This document shows positions 54,016-64,000 of a stretch of DNA of 64,000 nucleotides, in pieces. How positions within the stretch are numbered: the stretch's first letter is position 1; each line of letters starts with the position of its first letter. A program made the translations under genes and the position numbers. Source of the stretch: Corallococcus macrosporus DSM 14697 (GTDB taxonomy: Bacteria > Myxococcota > Myxococcia > Myxococcales > Myxococcaceae); contig NZ_CP022203.1 of the NCBI RefSeq assembly GCF_002305895.1, positions 908,501 to 972,500 on the forward strand. The letters are read 5' to 3'. The notes below the pieces were generated by a model that saw only the letters and a program-made list of their open reading frames with translations, did not search any database and was not told where the DNA came from.

Positions 54016-55209
54016 TCAACTGAAGGGCAGGGCCGCGAGCCGCTCCCGGAACCGGCCGAGCAGCTCCCGCGCCCCTGCCTCCTCCAGGCCGTCCCCCGCC
54101 TCCTGACGCGCCTTGCGCAGGAAGGTGTCGAAGGGGGGCGAGCGTCCCAGGAGCGCGCCCGCCGCCTCCACCGCCTCCGCCAGCACGCGCTCCGCGCCGC
54201 GTGAGCCCAGCGTGAGGTGCATGTCCGCCTGCTCCAGCTTCAGGCCGCAGGTGGCCCACACCGAGCGGTCGTGGACGACGAGCCAGGCGCGGGTCACCTC
54301 CTCCATCTGCTCCTCCAGCGCCGCCAGGTAGGGCTCCACCAGCCCCGGCAGCGCGTCCGGCGCCAGCTCCGCCAGGGCCGCCGCGTCCAGCAGGCGCGCG
54401 CGCACCTCCAGCACCTGCTGCTTCTGCGGCGTGCGCAGCGCCACCGCGGCCGGCAGGGACACGAAGGCGGACAGGCTCTCCGCCACCTGCCGCGCCATGG
54501 CCGGCCGCGCGCGGGCCTCCGCCCTGGCCGCGCGCTCCAGCCGGCCTTGCAGGGAGCGGCGCAGGTCCGCCGCCGCCGCGCGCAGCGCCGCCCGGGCGCC
54601 CACCTGGTTCGCGTAGCCGGGCACCACGTCCTCGCGGCGCACGTCGTCGAACGCCGCGGCGGTGAGGTACACGAGGTCGCCGATGGTGACGCGGAAGTCG
54701 GCGCGGAAGGCCTGCAGCTCGGCCATCAGCGTCCAGCGGTCGCTCACCACCTCGGGGCGGCGCATCTGCTGGCCCAGCTCCGCCACGCGCCGGGCCAGCC
54801 GGTCCGCGACGGCGTGCAGCACCGCCTCCACCTCCTGCGCCAGCCGCTCGTCCGAGCTGGCCGGAGGCGGGGCCCAGCCGCCATCGCCGAGCCCGGTGGG
54901 GCGCGAGGGCGGCGGGAACTCCTGGTGGACGGCGGCGATGAGCTGGTTGACGCCCACCAGCGTGTCGCCAATGGCCGGCGCCATCGTCTCCCACAGCGAC
55001 AGGTCCGCGCCGCCGTCCGCTTCCAGCGACGTGGGCTCGTACTTCGCGATGCTCAGGTGCCCCAGCCGGTCAATGGCCACGGCGGCGGCGCGGTGCACCC
55101 GCTCCAGCCGGTCCGCGAGGTGCCGGTCCGTGAGGGCTTCCAGGAGGGATTCCAGGCGCGCGGGGAGCGCGTCCTGGGGCGGGCGGGGCTTGGGCGTCGG
55201 CGCGGGCAT
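54016..55209 (-). CDS. Conserved hypothetical protein, helical
   Basis: A 397-residue protein, mostly amphipathic helix (RLESLLEALTDRHLADRLER, RVAELGQQMRRPEVVSDRW, ALRAAAADLRRSLQGRLER), without signal peptide, membrane segment or recognised motif. The high Ala/Arg/Leu content suggests coiled coil or a helical bundle. It is divergent from the A2M-like operon. Confidence 0.7.
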   Translation of the reverse strand: MPAPTPKPRPPQDALPARLESLLEALTDRHLADRLERVHRAAAVAIDRLGHLSIAKYEPTSLEADGGADLSLWETMAPAIGDTLVGVNQLIAAVHQEFPPPSRPTGLGDGGWAPPPASSDERLAQEVEAVLHAVADRLARRVAELGQQMRRPEVVSDRWTLMAELQAFRADFRVTIGDLVYLTAAAFDDVRREDVVPGYANQVGARAALRAAAADLRRSLQGRLERAARAEARARPAMARQVAESLSAFVSLPAAVALRTPQKQQVLEVRARLLDAAALAELAPDALPGLVEPYLAALEEQMEEVTRAWLVVHDRSVWATCGLKLEQADMHLTLGSRGAERVLAEAVEAAGALLGRSPPFDTFLRKARQEAGDGLEEAGARELLGRFRERLAALPFS

Positions 55210-55326
55210 GTCGAGGCGGGGAACCGCGAAGGGACGCAGACCCTAGCGCACCGCCATCAGTCATGCGACGGAGGGGGGCTCGTCAGGGCCCCGCCTTCCC
55301 GGCATAGAGTGGAGAGAAGGGGAGGA

Positions 55327-58300
55327 ATGATGACAATCCGCTTCCGGCGACGCCGGCTGCTGGGGGGAGGGCTGGCCGCGTTGCTCGTGGGAGGCGCGGT
55401 GGCCTACGCCACCTGGGACGTCTGCGTCTCCGCCTGGGTCCTGCAAGGCGTGAAGGTGCCGAGCTGTCCGGACGGACAGTTCCGCCAGGTGGTGGAGGTC
55501 CACGGCTCCGCCCTGGCGCGCGGCAGCACGGGGCGGGTGGTGGTCCTGGCGCAGGCGCTCGCGCCGCACCCGGAGACGGGGCGGATGATGCGGGCGCCGG
55601 TGACGCAGGGCTCGGCCGCTGTGTTCCTGGTGGACGCGGAGGGGAAGGAGACGCCGCTCCCGCTGGCGAAGGACACGGACTGGGAGCGCATCGACGAGGA
55701 CCGGAGGCTGGCGGCCGAGGTGGTGCTGCCCGAGGTGCCGGACGGGGACTACCAGCTCCGGGCGAAGGTGACGTCGCCGCTGGGCACGGACTCCGTGGAC
55801 GCGGCGCTGCCGCTGTACGCCACCGCCCTGGCGCACGTGCTCACGGACCGTCCCCTGTACGAGCCGGGCCACGAGGTCCTCTTCCGCGCGGTGGCGCTGC
55901 GGGCCAAGGACCTGGCGCCGCTGGACGGGCGGCCCGGGACGTGGCGGGTGACGGACCCCTCCGGCGAGGTGGTGCTGGAGGAGCGCGCGCCCGCCGGGCC
56001 CTGGGGCGTGGTGCCCGGGCGCTTCCCGCTGGACCGGGGCGCGCCGCGAGGCACGTGGACGGTGAGCTGGGTGAGCGGTGGGGCGCGGGGGGCGGCCACC
56101 TTCGAGGTGAAGCCCTTCACCCTGCCGCGCTTCCGCGTGGAGGCCAGCAGCGCCCGCCCCTTCTGGCGCGCGGACGAGGTGCCGGTGGTGGACGGGCAGG
56201 TGACGTACGCGTCCGGCGCGCCGGTGGCCGACGTGGAGGTGGCGCTGACGTGGGACCTGGACGGCGACTGGCCCGCGCCGACGGAGTGGTTCCACGGGGG
56301 GCTGCCCGAGCGCGCGCGCACCGACGCGGCGGGCCGCTTCCGGCTGGTGTTGCCGCGCGTGCCCATGGACCTGCGCGGCCAGGCCCGGCTGGTGGCGCGC
56401 GTGGTGGCGCGGGACGCGGCGGGGGACCGCGTCGAGGGCGGCGTGTCGCTGCTGCTGTCGGAGGACGCGCTCAGCGTGTCGGCGGTGACGGAGCTGGAGG
56501 GCGGGCTGGCGCCGGGCTTCAACAACCGCGTCTACCTGCGCGCGACGACGGCCGCGGGGCAGGTGCTGCCGGGCGCGGAGCTGACGGTGAAGCGCGCCTG
56601 GGACCCGCGGGACGAAGGCGTGCGCGCGGTGGCGGACGAGGACGGCGTGGCCGTCTTCCAGCTCGACCCGGGGCCCCCCGTCAACGTCGTGGTGCCGCCC
56701 ATGCCCGTGCGGCCTCCGCCGCTCGAGCCCACCGTGCGGCTGAACCAGGCGCGCGACCTGCTGGCGCCGGGCACGGAGGCCTCGCTGGAGGACCTGCTCG
56801 CGCTGGAGAAGCTGCTGCCCGCGGTCGAGCCCTGCGCGCGCTTCGTGACGCGGGACCAGGTGGAGCTCGACGTGGAGCTTGGCCTGCGCGTGAGCGCTTC
56901 GGGCGCGGTGCTGGACGTGGCCTCCGACGCGCAGCCGCTGTCCGCCTGTGTGGCCACGGCGCTGCGCTCGCGCACGCTGCCCGCCGGGCGCGAGCGCGTC
57001 CTCCAGGTGGGCCTGAGCCTGGCGGACCCGGGGCTCCCGGAGCTGGAGGTGGAGGTGGAGTCGGCCTTCGGCCGGCCAGAGTCGCTGGTGAGCGCGCTGG
57101 GCGACGCGGCCCGTGACGCGCGCGTGTGCCTGCCTCGGGCGCTGAGCGTGGAGACGCCCCTGCCCGCGGCGGTGAGCTGGCGGCTGGGGAAGCGGGGCCT
57201 GGAGTCGCTGACGTGGGTGTCCTCGCCGAGGCAGCCCGTTTCGCTGGCCGCGTCGGTGATGCCCTGCATCCAGGAGCGCTTCGCGCGCGTCCGGCTGCCC
57301 GACGCCGAGCGGCCTCAGGGCGCACTGGGCGTGGCGCGCCTCACCGCGCGGCCGGCGGGACAGACGGGGGAGCGGGTCGTGCCGCAGGCCACCACCTTCC
57401 TGGGCTACGAGCTGAGGGTGAGCGCCACGCTGGGCGGCGAAGCCGTGGGCGAGACGAAGCTGGTGCAGCGTCCCGCGGAGGTGCCTCCCACGCGCCTGCG
57501 TGCCACGCCCGTGCTGGCGCGCGGCGGCGACGAGGTCCGCATCGAGCTGTTGCGCGGGCCCCAGTACTCCGGCGCGCTGCCCGAGCGCCTGGTGCTCCAG
57601 GCGGGCGACGCGCGGCTGGAAGGGAAGGTGGACCAGGCGACGCGCTCGGTCCGCTTCAAGCTGCCCGAGGACTTCGAGGGCTGGGCGATGACGTACTGGG
57701 AGGGCGCGCAAGGCCGCGTGTACGTGGCGCCGCGCGCGCAGCTCTCCGTGGAGGTGACGCCGGACAAGCAGCGCTACGCGCCCGGCGAGCTGGCCCGGCT
57801 CCAGGTGCACACGCGCGTGGATGGCCAGGACGGTCCGGCGGCGGTGGGCCTCTTCGGTGTGGATGAGACGCTGGCGCAGCTCGCGCCGCTGCCCGGGGCG
57901 GATGCGCTGGGGACGCTGCGGCCCGTGCCCAGCGTGTCCTCGCCCGCCTTCGGCGTCCTGGACGGACAGGCGCTGGCCATGGGCCGCATCCGGGGCGCGA
58001 ACGCGGCCTCGGCGGCGGTGCTGCGGGTGAGCGACGTGCCCCGGCGTGAGCACGCGGAGCCCCGGCTGACGGTGAGCGCGGCGACCTCCTTCGAGCCGGA
58101 GTCGGAGCTGACCGAGCCCTTCTACGCCGTGCTGTCGGAGCTGCACGCGCAGGTGCGCGCGTGGGAGGAGCAGGCGCCTCAGGGCCAGACGCTGGACCCG
58201 GCGGGCATGGCCCGGCTGTGGGAGGGCGCGCTGGCGGCGTGTGAGAAGCGCGGCGAGAAGGTGACGGATGCCTTTGGCCGCCGGCTGAAGCTGTCCCGGC

Positions 58301-58413
58301 TGCCCGTGGACCTGCTGGCCCTCACCGACCCTCGGGCGGTGGTGTCCAGCGGCACGCGGCTGCCGGAGGACGTGGAGAACTGGAACGCATGGGTTGCCCG
58401 GGAGGCGCCATGA
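55327..58413 (+). CDS. Alpha-2-macroglobulin-like protein, N-terminal half, with AgmX-like inserts
   Basis: A 1028-residue exported protein. An Arg-rich signal anchor (RFRRRRLLGGGLAALLVGGAVA) is followed by macroglobulin domains; the MG2 segment reads HVLTDRPLYEPGHEVLFRAVA. Between about residues 495 and 665 are two repeats with Cys-x-x pairs and G-x-L/V strands (ELGLRVSASGAVLDV; KRGLESLTWVSS), resembling AgmX/PglI C-terminal domains of myxobacterial gliding proteins. MG domains resume after them. Two adjacent ATGs (55327 and 55330) follow GGAGGA. Its end overlaps the next gene by 4 bases, so the macroglobulin is split in two polypeptides. Confidence 0.8.
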   Translation: MMTIRFRRRRLLGGGLAALLVGGAVAYATWDVCVSAWVLQGVKVPSCPDGQFRQVVEVHGSALARGSTGRVVVLAQALAPHPETGRMMRAPVTQGSAAVFLVDAEGKETPLPLAKDTDWERIDEDRRLAAEVVLPEVPDGDYQLRAKVTSPLGTDSVDAALPLYATALAHVLTDRPLYEPGHEVLFRAVALRAKDLAPLDGRPGTWRVTDPSGEVVLEERAPAGPWGVVPGRFPLDRGAPRGTWTVSWVSGGARGAATFEVKPFTLPRFRVEASSARPFWRADEVPVVDGQVTYASGAPVADVEVALTWDLDGDWPAPTEWFHGGLPERARTDAAGRFRLVLPRVPMDLRGQARLVARVVARDAAGDRVEGGVSLLLSEDALSVSAVTELEGGLAPGFNNRVYLRATTAAGQVLPGAELTVKRAWDPRDEGVRAVADEDGVAVFQLDPGPPVNVVVPPMPVRPPPLEPTVRLNQARDLLAPGTEASLEDLLALEKLLPAVEPCARFVTRDQVELDVELGLRVSASGAVLDVASDAQPLSACVATALRSRTLPAGRERVLQVGLSLADPGLPELEVEVESAFGRPESLVSALGDAARDARVCLPRALSVETPLPAAVSWRLGKRGLESLTWVSSPRQPVSLAASVMPCIQERFARVRLPDAERPQGALGVARLTARPAGQTGERVVPQATTFLGYELRVSATLGGEAVGETKLVQRPAEVPPTRLRATPVLARGGDEVRIELLRGPQYSGALPERLVLQAGDARLEGKVDQATRSVRFKLPEDFEGWAMTYWEGAQGRVYVAPRAQLSVEVTPDKQRYAPGELARLQVHTRVDGQDGPAAVGLFGVDETLAQLAPLPGADALGTLRPVPSVSSPAFGVLDGQALAMGRIRGANAASAAVLRVSDVPRREHAEPRLTVSAATSFEPESELTEPFYAVLSELHAQVRAWEEQAPQGQTLDPAGMARLWEGALAACEKRGEKVTDAFGRRLKLSRLPVDLLALTDPRAVVSSGTRLPEDVENWNAWVAREAP

Positions 58414-60821
58414 ATCGCTCGTTCTTCGCCGGGGTGGGGTGCTCCCTGGCGGGCCTGGTGGGCTTGCTGTTGGTCGTGACGCTCTTCGGCGACAACATCC
58501 GGCGCCTGTTCGGCGCATCCGCGGAGGCGCTGGCCGGTGAGCCCGCGCGTCAGGTGGCCCGCCTCATGCCCCCGTCCCAGGACTCGGCCTTCGGCGGCGA
58601 TGTGCAAGGCGTGGCGGAGGCGCCAGCGCCCGAGATGGAGATGGAGCTGGACGCGTCCGCGCGCGAGGTCCTCGGCGAACGCGCCCAGGTGCTGAAGGCG
58701 GAGAGGAGCAAGAAGCGTGCGGGCGCCGCGGAGACGGACGCCGCGCCTGGCCGCGCCTGGTTCCCGGAGACCTTCCTCTTCGAGCCCCTGGTGGTGACGG
58801 ACGCGGCCGGCGCGGCGACGGTGCCGGTGCGCGTACCGGACCGCCTCACCCGGTGGCGGGTGCTGGCGCTGGCGCACTCGCGCTCGGGCGCGCAGTCCGG
58901 CGCGGTGACGACCTTCACGGGCACGCTGCCCACGTACGTGGACCCGGTGCTCCCGGCCTTCCTCCGCGCGGGTGACGCGGTGCGGATGCCGGTGCAGGTG
59001 ATGAACACCACGGACGCGGCGGTGGAGGCGCCCTTGAAGGTGGAGGTGCCGGGCGCCGTGGTGGAGGGCGGCAGCCGCACCGTGCGGGTGCCCGCGCGCG
59101 GCAGCGTGGTGGAGTACGTGACGGTGCGGGTGGCCACGCCGGGGCAGGTGGCGGTGCGCGCGGCGCTGGGCGCCACCGACGCGGTGGTGCGGGACTTCCC
59201 CGTGTGGGCCACCGGGCGGCCCGTGCTCCAGACGCGCGGCGGCACGCTGGCCGCGCCGCGCACGCTGTCCCTCACCGGCGAGCAGGACGCGCAGCCGGGC
59301 AGCGAGCGGGTCCGGCTGCGGGTGTACCCCGGCGGCCTGGGCGTGCTGCGCTCGGAGCTGCTGAACGCGGGCGGACGCGAGGACGCCGCGGGCGTGGCGT
59401 ATTCACTGCTGCTGGCCGGCCGCGCGTCGGAGCTGCTGGCCGCGCTGGGTGAGACGCGCTCCGCTGAAGCGCTGAAGTCGCTGAGCACGCCGGGGCGGAA
59501 GCTGACGGCGCCCACGCCTCCTGAGCCTGGCGAGGTGGACGTGGAGGCGGTGCGGACCGGGCTGCTGCGGTCCACCCAGCGCGCGCTGCGGTGGAGCCGG
59601 GCGCCGGACGTGGCCACGGCGGCGCTGCTGGCGGAGGGCGCGCTGGCGCACCCGGACAACCCCGTGCTGGCCCGCCTGGGCGAGCGGCTGGCCGCGCAGG
59701 TGGCGGCGGCGCAGCTCCCGGACGGCACCTGCCAGGGCGGCGAGGGGTGGACGCTCCAGCGGCTGCTGGTGGCCACCGCGGACTGCACGCGCGCGGTGAA
59801 CGCGGCGGCGGGGACGCCGGAGGGCAAGCGCCGCGCGGCCTTCTTCACCGCGCGGGCCTCGGGCGCGCTGGAGCGCAACCGGGCGCACGTCAAGGACGGC
59901 TACACCGCGGCGGCGCTGCTGGCGAGCGGCGCGGTGACGGGCTCGCCGCGGGATTCGCTGCGCGAGCAGGTGCGCGAGGCGGTGAAGCGGCGCGACGAGG
60001 GCGCCGCGTACCTGCCCGTGGAGGAGGGCGTGGTGGACGCCGCGGGCAACACGCCGACGGAGGCCGAGGCCACCGCGCTGGCGGTGCTGGCCCTGGAAGG
60101 CGACGCGAAGGCGCCCGTGGCGGACCTGGGCGCCGCGTTGCTCGCCAGCTATGAGCCGGCGTCCGGCTGGGGCAGCGGGCGCGCCAACCGGCTGGCGTTG
60201 CAGGCGGTGGTGGCCCTCTTCCGCGAGCCGCTGCCCGCCCAGGTGCGGGTGGTGCTGGAGCGGGACGGCCAGGTCCTCACCGAGGGCACCTTCGACGCCA
60301 AGGCCCTGCGGGAGGTGCTGTCCCTGGAGGCGGCGGCGCCGGGCTCGGGTGGCACGCACGCCTGGACGGTGCGCGCGGAGCCCGCGGTGCCGGGGCTGGG
60401 CTTCGCCCTGGCGCTGAGCGCCGCGGTGCCGTGGAAGCAGGCGTCACAGGCCGGGCTGGAGCTGGCGGTGCAGGTGCCCTCGGACGCCAAGGTGGGGCAG
60501 CCGTCGGAGGTGGCGTTCCAGGCGTCCACGCCGTCGGGCATGCCCCTGGTGCTGCGCCACGGGCTGCCCGCCGGGGTGCAGGTGGACGCCGGCAGCCTGG
60601 AGGCGCTCCTGCGCGAAGGGAAGGTGTCCGCCTGGAGCGCGGAGGATGGCGCGCTGACGCTGAGTCTTCCGCCCCGAGGGCCGGGCGAGCCCTTCCAGGT
60701 GCGCTTCCGCGTCATCCCGACGCTGGCGGGCACACTCCAGGGCGGGGCGTCGTCGCTGACGTCCCCGTCGCGCCCTGACCTCGTGTCCTACGTACCTCCC
60801 GCTACGTGGGCGGTGCGCTGA
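58410..60821 (+). CDS. Alpha-2-macroglobulin-like protein, C-terminal half, without thioester
   Basis: An 803-residue protein with its own membrane anchor (LAGLVGLLLVVTLFG). The A2M domain is WFPETFLFEPLVVTDAAGAA followed by LTRWRVLALAHS. A helical region typical of the thioester domain follows (about residues 340-600), but the CGEQ thioester motif is not present; only DGTCQGGEGW is seen. The thioester-containing bacterial macroglobulins trap proteases; a form without it might be structural. The start ATG lies inside the previous stop, so the halves are made together. Confidence 0.8.
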   Translation: MNRSFFAGVGCSLAGLVGLLLVVTLFGDNIRRLFGASAEALAGEPARQVARLMPPSQDSAFGGDVQGVAEAPAPEMEMELDASAREVLGERAQVLKAERSKKRAGAAETDAAPGRAWFPETFLFEPLVVTDAAGAATVPVRVPDRLTRWRVLALAHSRSGAQSGAVTTFTGTLPTYVDPVLPAFLRAGDAVRMPVQVMNTTDAAVEAPLKVEVPGAVVEGGSRTVRVPARGSVVEYVTVRVATPGQVAVRAALGATDAVVRDFPVWATGRPVLQTRGGTLAAPRTLSLTGEQDAQPGSERVRLRVYPGGLGVLRSELLNAGGREDAAGVAYSLLLAGRASELLAALGETRSAEALKSLSTPGRKLTAPTPPEPGEVDVEAVRTGLLRSTQRALRWSRAPDVATAALLAEGALAHPDNPVLARLGERLAAQVAAAQLPDGTCQGGEGWTLQRLLVATADCTRAVNAAAGTPEGKRRAAFFTARASGALERNRAHVKDGYTAAALLASGAVTGSPRDSLREQVREAVKRRDEGAAYLPVEEGVVDAAGNTPTEAEATALAVLALEGDAKAPVADLGAALLASYEPASGWGSGRANRLALQAVVALFREPLPAQVRVVLERDGQVLTEGTFDAKALREVLSLEAAAPGSGGTHAWTVRAEPAVPGLGFALALSAAVPWKQASQAGLELAVQVPSDAKVGQPSEVAFQASTPSGMPLVLRHGLPAGVQVDAGSLEALLREGKVSAWSAEDGALTLSLPPRGPGEPFQVRFRVIPTLAGTLQGGASSLTSPSRPDLVSYVPPATWAVR

Positions 60822-61028: not shown

Positions 61029-62066
61029 ATGGAACTCGACGGCGCGGAGAGGGACGAGCTACAGCGGGCGCTGACCAGCGCGTTTGCCTCGGTGGAGCAC
61101 CTTCGCCGGGTCGTGGCCGCCACCTGCCGCAGGGACATGGAGGCGCTGGGCATCTCCGGCGGGCTGCGTGAGCGCGTCTTCACGCTCGTCCACCTGGCGG
61201 AAGCGGAGGGCTGGCTGCGTGAGTTGATCCGCGGCGCGTACCTGGCCCTGCCCCGCCACCCACGCCTCCACCGCTTCGTGCAGGGGTACCTCGCCTCCGT
61301 CCAGCGCAGCATTCCCCGTGTCGGGCTGGAGCGCATCTTCGGCACCAGCCGGGAGAGCGCGGAGCGCGAGCGCTGGCGCAAGCGCCTGACCTCCATCGAG
61401 CGACAGGTGTGCCGGGTGGAGCCGGAGGTGGGCGCGGCCCTGGGCACCGGCTTCCTGGTGTCCCCCAACGTGGTGCTCACCAACTACCACGTCATCGAGA
61501 ACCGGCTGCTGGAGTCGCTGCGCGTGCGCTTCGGCCGCAAGGTGCTCCATGACGGGACGCTGCTGCACCCCGGCACGGTGTACCGCGTGACGCGCTGCCT
61601 GGCGCGCAGCCCCTACAGCCCCGCGGACCTGATGCACCCCCGCCCCCGGGACGCCACGCCGGGCGAGCTGGACTACGCCTTCCTGGAAGTGGCGGGGGCC
61701 CCGGGCGATGACCGGGTGGAAGTCGAGCCCCGGGGCTGGCTGGAGCTGCCGGACTCGCGGGAGCCCTTCACCCCGGGCAGCCTGGTGCTCATCGTCCAAC
61801 ACCCGGCGGGCCAGCCGATGAGCGTGGCGCTCGACGAGTTCCTCGGCGTCAACCCGGGCCGCACGCGCGTGGCGTACCGCGCGTGCACGGGGCCGGGCTC
61901 GTCGGGCGCGCCCTGCTTCACCCAGGACCTGCGGCTGGCCGCGCTGCACCACAGCGGTGGGCCGCGCATCCCCTCCGTGTCGGTGGGGCACAACGAGGGC
62001 ATCCCCATCGACACCATCCGCGGCAGCCTGTCCCGGAGCATGCTGGGGCAGCTCGGCTGGGGCTGA
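61029..62066 (+). CDS. EAD1-type domain fused to trypsin-like serine protease
   Basis: A 345-residue cytoplasmic protein. Residues 7-90 (DELQRALTSAFASVEHLRRV, HLAEAEGWLRELIRGAYLAL, PRHPRLHRFV) form a helical domain that resembles effector-associated domain 1 (EAD1), an adaptor in prokaryotic NLR-like conflict systems. A trypsin-like protease follows, with candidate triad His154 (TNYHVIE), Asp215 (LDYAFLE) and Ser292 (GPGSSGAP). EAD-protease proteins are thought to be cut loose or recruited by a partner that shares an EAD. There is no signal peptide. The ATG at 61029 starts the conserved part. The next gene begins 45 bases later. Confidence 0.8.
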   Translation: MELDGAERDELQRALTSAFASVEHLRRVVAATCRRDMEALGISGGLRERVFTLVHLAEAEGWLRELIRGAYLALPRHPRLHRFVQGYLASVQRSIPRVGLERIFGTSRESAERERWRKRLTSIERQVCRVEPEVGAALGTGFLVSPNVVLTNYHVIENRLLESLRVRFGRKVLHDGTLLHPGTVYRVTRCLARSPYSPADLMHPRPRDATPGELDYAFLEVAGAPGDDRVEVEPRGWLELPDSREPFTPGSLVLIVQHPAGQPMSVALDEFLGVNPGRTRVAYRACTGPGSSGAPCFTQDLRLAALHHSGGPRIPSVSVGHNEGIPIDTIRGSLSRSMLGQLGWG

Positions 62067-62111
62067 CGGGCGCGAAGTGGAGGCAGGGGGGGCGCCTGAT
62101 ACAGTCAGTGA

Positions 62112-64000
62112 ATGCATCTGACTTGCGCCCGTCCCGCCGTCATCCACGCCGCGTGGGGGCTCGTGCGTCTTCCGGCCCTGCTCCTGCTGCTCGTCCTCCC
62201 CTGGAGGGCGGGGGCTGAACCCGCGCTGCGCGTGGCGGGCGCCTCCGCCAGCAACGAGGTGAAGCTGCGGACGGCGTCCGAGGACTTCCGGCACGTGCTG
62301 CGCGTGGACCTGCTGAGCGCACCGCAGGCGGCCAGCGACGTGGCCGTGGCTGGCGGCGTGGCGGCCGGCGGCGCGGCGGACGGCGAGCTGCCCGGGGGCG
62401 TGACGGTGCTGGTGGACCCGCTCCAGTCCCAGGACGGCGCGCAGGTGGCGCTGCGAGCGGTGGTGCAGGACGCGGAGGCGGGGAGCGCCACGGCGCCCAT
62501 CTCCACGCGGCGGCCCATCCACGTCGAGCTGACCGGACGGCTGCCCGTCACGGGAGACTACACGGGCCAGGTGGTGCTGGTGCACGCGGGAGGGCGGGAG
62601 ACCACCGCGCTCATCGTCACGCGCCTCCAGGCGGTGCCCACGGTGCAGTTCGTCGCCACCTCGCCCGCGGTGACGTCGGCGGGTTGGGGCTGGAGCTCCA
62701 TCGACGCCACCGTGCGGCTGCCGTTCAAGGAGACGGCGGGCGTGGGCGGGTACGTGTCGGTGCCCCAGTTGCTGCAGCTCCAGCGCAAGGCGCCGGACAT
62801 GGACTCGGCGCTCATCCAGCCGCGCTTCCAGCGCGTGCGCTTCTCCCTGGAGGGCGGCAAGCCGGATGGTGGCGACCTGGACGTCACGGCGACGGACGGC
62901 GGCATCCCCGTGAGCGCGCACGGCAGCGGCGCGTTGCTGGTGCACCTGCAGGGCCTGGAAGGGCCGGGCGAGTACACCGGCAGCGTGCGCCTGGCGGTGC
63001 GCTCGGGCCTGCCGGTGGAGCAGCCCTTCACCTTGTGGGTGGGCTCGCCCTGGCTGTGGGGCGCGTTGCTCATCGCGGCGGGGGCCGTGTCGTCGTTCGG
63101 CGTGCGCCTGTACTCGCAGCGCATCCGGCCGCGCACGCTGCGCTTGCAGCGGGCCATGGAGCTGCACCGCCGGATTCAGGCCCTGGTGAGCGGCCAGGCC
63201 GCGCGGGCGCGCGAGGTGGGGCAGGCGCTGCTGGGGCAGGTGGCGGGGCTCGCGTCGGAGATTCGCCGGCCGGTGCGCGGCATCCGCGTGGGCGACGACG
63301 CGCTGGCCGCGATGGAGCCGCGCATGCGCCTGTACGGCGCGTGGTGTGACGCCTCCCGCAAGCTGGAGGCGCTCCCGCAGGAGCTGCGTCCGCAGCAGGC
63401 GAGCGCGCTCCTGGCCGAGGTGGAGGGCGCGCTGCGCGCCGAGGACACGGCGACGGAGCAGATGGATGGCTCGCTCGCCAGGGTGCGGGAGCTGGACGTG
63501 GACGGCCTGGCGCGCGCGGGGCTGGAGGCGCGGCTCCAGGACATCGACCGGCAGGCGCACACGCTGATGGAGCAGCACGGGGACGACTCCCTGAGCTTCC
63601 GGCTCAAGTACGAGCTGGTGCCCCTGCTGACGAGCGTGCGCCACGAGCTGGCGCGGGGGGCGCTGGAGGCGGGCCGTCACCAGCTCGAGTTCGCCCGCCG
63701 CTCGTACTTCGACATCCTGTGCGAGGAGCTCGCCGCCGCGGTGGCCTCGCGCAACCTGCCGCGCGGCTTCACCGAGGAGGAGTGGGAGGCCCTCTCCCGG
63801 CAGGTGAAGACGCTGCTGGAGCGGGCCCGGGAGCGCGCGAGCACCAGCGTGGATGACGCCGTCCGCATGTACCAGGGCGCGCACGCCGCCTACGTGCGCC
63901 AGCTCATCGTGGAGCTGCGCGGCGCGGTCGACGATGCGCGGCAGGTGAGTGAGTCCGAGGCCCAGACGCAGGCGCTCGACGAGGTGGAGGAGCGGCTGCG
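62112..64000 (+). CDS. Large single-pass membrane protein (3' end outside window)
   Basis: At least 629 residues, running off the right edge in an open frame. A signal peptide (LPALLLLLVLPWRAGA) leads to about 280 residues of beta-rich exported sequence without recognised domain. One membrane helix follows at about residues 313-333 (WLWGALLIAAGAVSSFGVRLY), and then a long cytoplasmic helical, coiled-coil-like region (LHRRIQALVSGQAARAREVG, ELDVDGLARAGLEARLQDIDRQ). Such a receptor-like layout next to an EAD1 protease suggests a partner role, but this is inference. Confidence 0.75.
   Translation, partial: MHLTCARPAVIHAAWGLVRLPALLLLLVLPWRAGAEPALRVAGASASNEVKLRTASEDFRHVLRVDLLSAPQAASDVAVAGGVAAGGAADGELPGGVTVLVDPLQSQDGAQVALRAVVQDAEAGSATAPISTRRPIHVELTGRLPVTGDYTGQVVLVHAGGRETTALIVTRLQAVPTVQFVATSPAVTSAGWGWSSIDATVRLPFKETAGVGGYVSVPQLLQLQRKAPDMDSALIQPRFQRVRFSLEGGKPDGGDLDVTATDGGIPVSAHGSGALLVHLQGLEGPGEYTGSVRLAVRSGLPVEQPFTLWVGSPWLWGALLIAAGAVSSFGVRLYSQRIRPRTLRLQRAMELHRRIQALVSGQAARAREVGQALLGQVAGLASEIRRPVRGIRVGDDALAAMEPRMRLYGAWCDASRKLEALPQELRPQQASALLAEVEGALRAEDTATEQMDGSLARVRELDVDGLARAGLEARLQDIDRQAHTLMEQHGDDSLSFRLKYELVPLLTSVRHELARGALEAGRHQLEFARRSYFDILCEELAAAVASRNLPRGFTEEEWEALSRQVKTLLERARERASTSVDDAVRMYQGAHAAYVRQLIVELRGAVDDARQVSESEAQTQALDEVEERL

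Follow-up and report, generated by a model that had tools for sequence, protein, structure and literature searches.

Two adjacent genes of Corallococcus macrosporus DSM 14697 encode an EAD1-trypsin protease and a receptor-like membrane protein, and they form a fixed, vertically inherited pair in three genera of myxobacteria. The EAD principle leads one to expect a cognate EAD on an NTPase-type core component, as set out in PMC7159879 and PMC8195603. In this case that cognate EAD is missing. The explanation put forward below, tentatively and at somewhat less than even confidence, is a two-gene membrane-tethered protease switch, in which a protease from a conflict system sits in the slot held elsewhere by CHAT/caspase-like proteases.

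The genes lie at the end of the 64,000-nucleotide stretch that was analysed, here called the window. The features are, in window positions unless a locus is named:

61029..62066, + strand: EAD1-trypsin protein, 345 aa, with Pfam EAD1 and Trypsin_2 and without a membrane segment; orthologues in 45 genomes
61029..61292, + strand: EAD1 domain, aa 1-88, by Pfam profile; the sole EAD1 above the cut-off in its own genome
61443..61943, + strand: Trypsin_2 protease domain, aa 139-305, by Pfam profile
61488-61490, 61671-61673 and 61902-61904, + strand: triad codons His154, Asp215 and Ser292, invariant in alignment A1
62112..64000, continuing beyond the window end to G000:C1:973008, + strand: receptor-like membrane protein, 798 aa in full (ORF L005:4613-7009)
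62112..62216, + strand: predicted signal segment, aa 1-35, hydrophobic at 10-28, modelled helix at 19-32
62217..63047, + strand: ectodomain of two Ig-like beta sandwiches, aa 36-312, from the AlphaFold2 (AF2) model with Foldseek and VIA
63051..63119, + strand: membrane helix, aa 314-336, followed by the Arg-rich flank RLYSQRIRPR (positive-inside), from hydrophobicity and the AF2 model
63129..64000, end outside the window, + strand: cytoplasmic helical bundle, aa 340-668, from the AF2 model
L005:6773-6967, outside the window: TM hairpin, aa 721-785, from the AF2 model and hydrophobicity

The first gene runs from an ATG at 61029 to a stop at 62066. A first-pass annotation had read its product as an EAD1-like adaptor joined to a trypsin-like protease with a complete triad, and this is borne out. 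Residues 1-87 match the Pfam profile PF19955 (EAD1) with E=5.4e-16 and 59.3 bits against a curated cut-off of 24.2, and residues 139-305 match PF13365 (Trypsin_2) with E=3.8e-17 and 63.8 bits against a cut-off of 27.6. In an alignment of diverse orthologues and relatives, His154, Asp215 and Ser292 are unchanged in 15/15. A hydrophobic or membrane segment was sought across all 345 residues and none was found.

The median dN/dS is 0.365 for EAD1 versus 0.314 for the protease; absolute values are inflated in GC-rich genomes, so that these numbers serve for comparison only. By this comparison the constraint on EAD1 almost equals that on the protease domain, and EAD1 is still under purifying selection. 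In one genome of the Myxococcus group (G114; L018:3922-4746), around 70 residues of EAD1 have been deleted while the protease and the membrane partner are kept, which means that EAD1 may be dispensable. A relative of the protease domain at 42% identity (G061; L086:10150-11247) carries an N-terminal hydrophobic, signal-like segment in place of EAD1.

A genome-wide profile search found one EAD1 above the cut-off in the genome of C. macrosporus itself, and exactly one is present in 44/45 genomes, the exception being G114 with its truncated copy. An extra weak match in the C. macrosporus genome was rejected as a second EAD1; it is a histidine kinase helix. VMAP-C profiles gave no match above the cut-off in any of the 45 genomes of the three genera. 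An NTPase/VMAP core was not found at the locus either; what stands next to the protease gene there is the macroglobulin genes on one side and the membrane-protein gene on the other.

Other orphans of this kind exist. The related genome G047 has a single EAD1-trypsin and lacks the membrane partner, and single EAD5-trypsins with no other EAD5 in the genome occur at G048:C1:6757808, G074:C18:102808 and G120:C4:740244. An orphan EAD-protease can thus exist without this membrane partner. Judging from the single EAD5-trypsins in other myxobacteria, proteases with an orphan EAD may be less rare than has been assumed.

The nearest relative of the EAD1-trypsin, at 50% identity, is found in G046, in a locus that also encodes an EAD1-VMAP-C protein, an AAA ATPase and an EAD1-TIR protein. 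In a tree rooted at its midpoint, the clade studied here is sister to the G046 protein with support 99/99. EAD1-trypsins of VMAP-type systems, from another myxobacterial genus and from a Nostoc plasmid, branch outside these two. On the Nostoc plasmid, pNsp_j, the EAD1-trypsin gene stands beside MoxR and vWA genes; plasmid-borne EAD1-trypsins, this MoxR-vWA-EAD1 locus included, are 30-36% identical and have other contexts. Given the sister position of G046 and the VMAP-type outgroups, the most likely origin of the protease is an EAD1 VMAP-type ternary conflict system that it has since left.

The membrane-protein gene starts at 62112 on the same strand, with a gap of 45 bp to the protease stop at 62066, as had been noted before, and its ORF reaches 798 aa outside the window. 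Of the layout first described for it, the beta-rich exported part and the membrane helix at aa 314-336 stand. The supposed coiled-coil tail does not: in the models it is a compact bundle of several helices, with a pLDDT of 90 in an AlphaFold2 run on this part by itself. Nor does the single helix, as the helix is not the only one, since two more lie in the C-terminal hairpin beyond the window. The full-length model has a mean pLDDT of 80. In it the ectodomain resembles tandem Ig-like/ASH folds according to Foldseek and VIA. By the Arg-rich flank that follows the first membrane helix, the helical domain is cytoplasmic and faces the same compartment as the protease. It is the topology that suggests membrane sensing.

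No family in Pfam (E up to 1) or NCBIfam matches the 798-aa protein, and PADLOC gave no family match for the part inside the window. A fold search of the PDB with the cytoplasmic bundle reached a best Foldseek E of 6e-3 and VIA Z scores up to 12, to helical bundles; a clear structural relative of this domain was not found with either program. The earlier statement that no EAD is seen in the neighbour also holds, as hhalign gives a probability below 1% for EAD1 similarity over the whole protein and over its parts.

Co-occurrence in other myxobacteria had been proposed as a way to check the pair. Both genes are in fact present in 45/45 genomes of Myxococcus, Corallococcus and Citreicoccus: the genome studied here, 26/26 other species of the Myxococcus group, 2/2 Citreicoccus and 16/16 Corallococcus. 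This excludes chance. The genes are adjacent on one contig in 44/45; in G115 they are on separate contigs. Homologues of the membrane protein occur in 54 genomes, a count for which the best few candidates per genome were scored. In G083 there is a clean empty site, where the flank k4-k2-k3-A2Ma-A2Mb runs straight on into the flank k16-k5-k17 and the pair is absent. In Corallococcus the same flanks enclose both genes together with a single additional one, k12. Since the same flanks hold both genes or neither, these would seem to be gained or lost jointly, as a unit of two. That they are adjacent in three related genera reflects, for the most part, a single event that was inherited.

Fixed vertical inheritance favours a stable cellular role over anti-phage defence. 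The first-pass suggestion that the locus is still a conflict module is not supported: conflict neighbourhoods are patchy and variable, whereas this pair is fixed and vertically inherited in three genera. Just past the window, L005:7319-13484 holds downstream ORFs that by eye look SUKH-like, transposase-like, DUF4150/PAAR-like and DUF2169-like, as in a polymorphic-toxin neighbourhood.

Distant members of the membrane-protein family, with roughly 25-30% identity, have other neighbours. The gene right after them encodes a CHAT protein of some 1,040 aa in G048 and G108, and likewise in an alphaproteobacterial MAG, where a few bp separate the two genes. In G110 and G081 the relative precedes a MoxR/ChlI-type AAA gene; further on in the G110 locus there is a weak CHAT match (E=1e-4), and in that of G081 a Pfam search for CHAT found none. 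The locus of G081 (L187:8512-17529) and G110 (L186) is itself undescribed, and besides the membrane protein of this family and the AAA gene it encodes a 630-aa protein without a Pfam match, a 448-aa protein and an 804-aa AAA_35 protein. In G062 the gene of the relative and a C25-like gene are arranged head-to-head, and a SAVED_CHAT-like gene lies nearby. There is no protease neighbour in G077, G079, G080, G083 or G045; the relatives in the first three are near a TonB receptor and that of G083 is near an NRPS gene.

Homologues are also found in two Anaerolineae and, in part, in Saccharothrix. Public genomes were scanned with two short peptide patterns, so the resulting count is a lower bound. 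Among 249 genomes from the class of the L171 organism there were the known case and partial weak matches only. No plasmid-borne copy of the membrane protein was found. In its tree, the EAD1-trypsin clade, the CHAT/C25 clade and the MoxR clade are separate, and the deep branching order is without resolution.

The switch could work as follows. The periplasmic Ig-like region of the membrane protein would be a sensor, and its cytoplasmic helical domain a docking platform to which the EAD1-trypsin would be recruited. There EAD1 probably binds itself, copy to copy, because the cell holds no second EAD1. A periplasmic signal would cluster the membrane proteins, the protease domains would be brought together, and the protease would be switched on. 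The EAD1-trypsin would then fill the slot that CHAT/caspase-like proteases have beside other members of the membrane-protein family. Physical contact, self-association of EAD1, activation from the periplasm and a substrate are all inferred parts of this proposal. So is a biological purpose; in a multicellular predator, the likeliest would be to respond to envelope damage or to lyse the cell in a regulated way.

A serious rival to the switch makes the membrane protein the effector: the protease would cut the disordered linker and thereby free or unlock the C-terminal hairpin, which would perturb the inner membrane. The linker (aa 664-718, past the window end, pLDDT below 50 in AlphaFold2) carries the motif AP-x-GG-S-L/I-P-x-LP-x-AP at aa 690-703, kept in all three genera amid variable sequence, with a mean column conservation of 0.76 versus 0.44 directly before it. 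A PLP at aa 717-719 stands ahead of the hairpin. The hairpin itself is under stronger constraint than any other part of the protein (median dN/dS of 0.16 for the hairpin and 0.53-0.60 elsewhere, as relative values only), and its residues WGG and WG...H are invariant family-wide in the alignment. Two-helix membrane effectors are, moreover, common in bacterial conflict systems. The motif could, however, be a docking site or a flexible proline-rich spacer, and the CHAT-associated relatives of the membrane protein do not have it in exact form. On the whole this effector reading is judged unlikely. Somewhat less probable again is that the pair still acts against invaders, the membrane protein having taken over the sensor role from the NTPase core. 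The descent of the protease from EAD1 ternary conflict systems would fit this, as would the relatives of the membrane protein beside MoxR-type AAA and CHAT genes, with the SAVED_CHAT-like gene nearby in G062. Against it, the pair occupies one site in every species of the three genera, with no turnover of effectors, and PADLOC has no match for the membrane-protein part in the window.

The two genes might also be unrelated, kept adjacent by slow rearrangement of the genome, with EAD1 as a relic. Local synteny is indeed broadly conserved, EAD1 has been deleted in G114, and some relatives of either gene occur without the other. But the genes are present or absent jointly between the same flanks, their spacing is close, EAD1 is under purifying selection, and related membrane proteins recur next to other proteases, all of which makes mere proximity improbable. 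Very improbable, finally, is a four-gene system that takes in the genes directly upstream. These encode an alpha-2-macroglobulin-like protein split over two adjacent genes, an MG2 half and an A2M half (window 54217-60821, + strand; L067:11581-17105), on the same strand as the pair in all three genera, and the macroglobulin would restrain the protease. However, the C-terminal (A2M) half is matched in 114/145 genomes of the order, mostly without EAD1-trypsin, and each half has an N-terminal membrane or export segment where the protease has none. This distribution, together with the empty site in G083, led to the macroglobulin genes being rejected as part of the system.

The switch can be compared with what is known. 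The EAD1-coupled MoxR-vWA-VMAP ternary conflict systems, as treated in Kaur et al. 2020 (PMC7159879), have a homologous EAD1-trypsin, and such loci are present in G046, where the nearest relative of the protease lies, and on the Nostoc plasmid pNsp_j. Measured against that account, the genomes studied here have no VMAP-C and no second EAD1, the partner is a membrane protein, and the locus is fixed rather than patchy. The EACC1 membrane-associated two-gene system, from the same paper, likewise consists of a membrane and a protease component, and relatives of the membrane protein accompany caspase-like CHAT proteins. The EACC1 domain was, however, not found in the membrane protein at Pfam E up to 1, and the protease here is trypsin-like with an EAD1, not a caspase with a variable tail. 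The first-pass view that the arrangement is unlike known EAD systems is strengthened by the lack of a second EAD1 and of VMAP-C, and by the CHAT/caspase-like proteases beside relatives of the partner. By analogy, animal death-receptor signalling (receptor, death-fold adaptor, protease) would have its parts in the same order: extracellular Ig-like region, membrane helix, adaptor, protease. Common descent is not suggested, and unlike in that pathway no adaptor domain was found in the membrane protein.

It is possible, if doubtful, that the previously undescribed membrane-protein family serves exchangeable proteases, either CHAT/caspase-like or EAD1-trypsin, as their general arm at the membrane, with the EAD acting by self-association alone. 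As proposed, and with the same doubt, this family would have an Ig-like ectodomain, a helical platform and a two-helix C-terminal hairpin, and would span Myxococcaceae, Anaerolineae, an alphaproteobacterial MAG and, partly, Saccharothrix. If true, it would be a bacterial transmembrane receptor-protease pathway with a death-fold-like EAD.

What gives the pair its importance is an EAD1 that is under selection in three genera without a matching copy, beside a membrane protein with caspase-associated relatives. If the parts cooperate, these social predators, which are genetically tractable, would have a bacterial pathway that leads from receptor to protease with no NTPase in it, and the conversion of conflict-system parts into stable cell signalling would become testable here.
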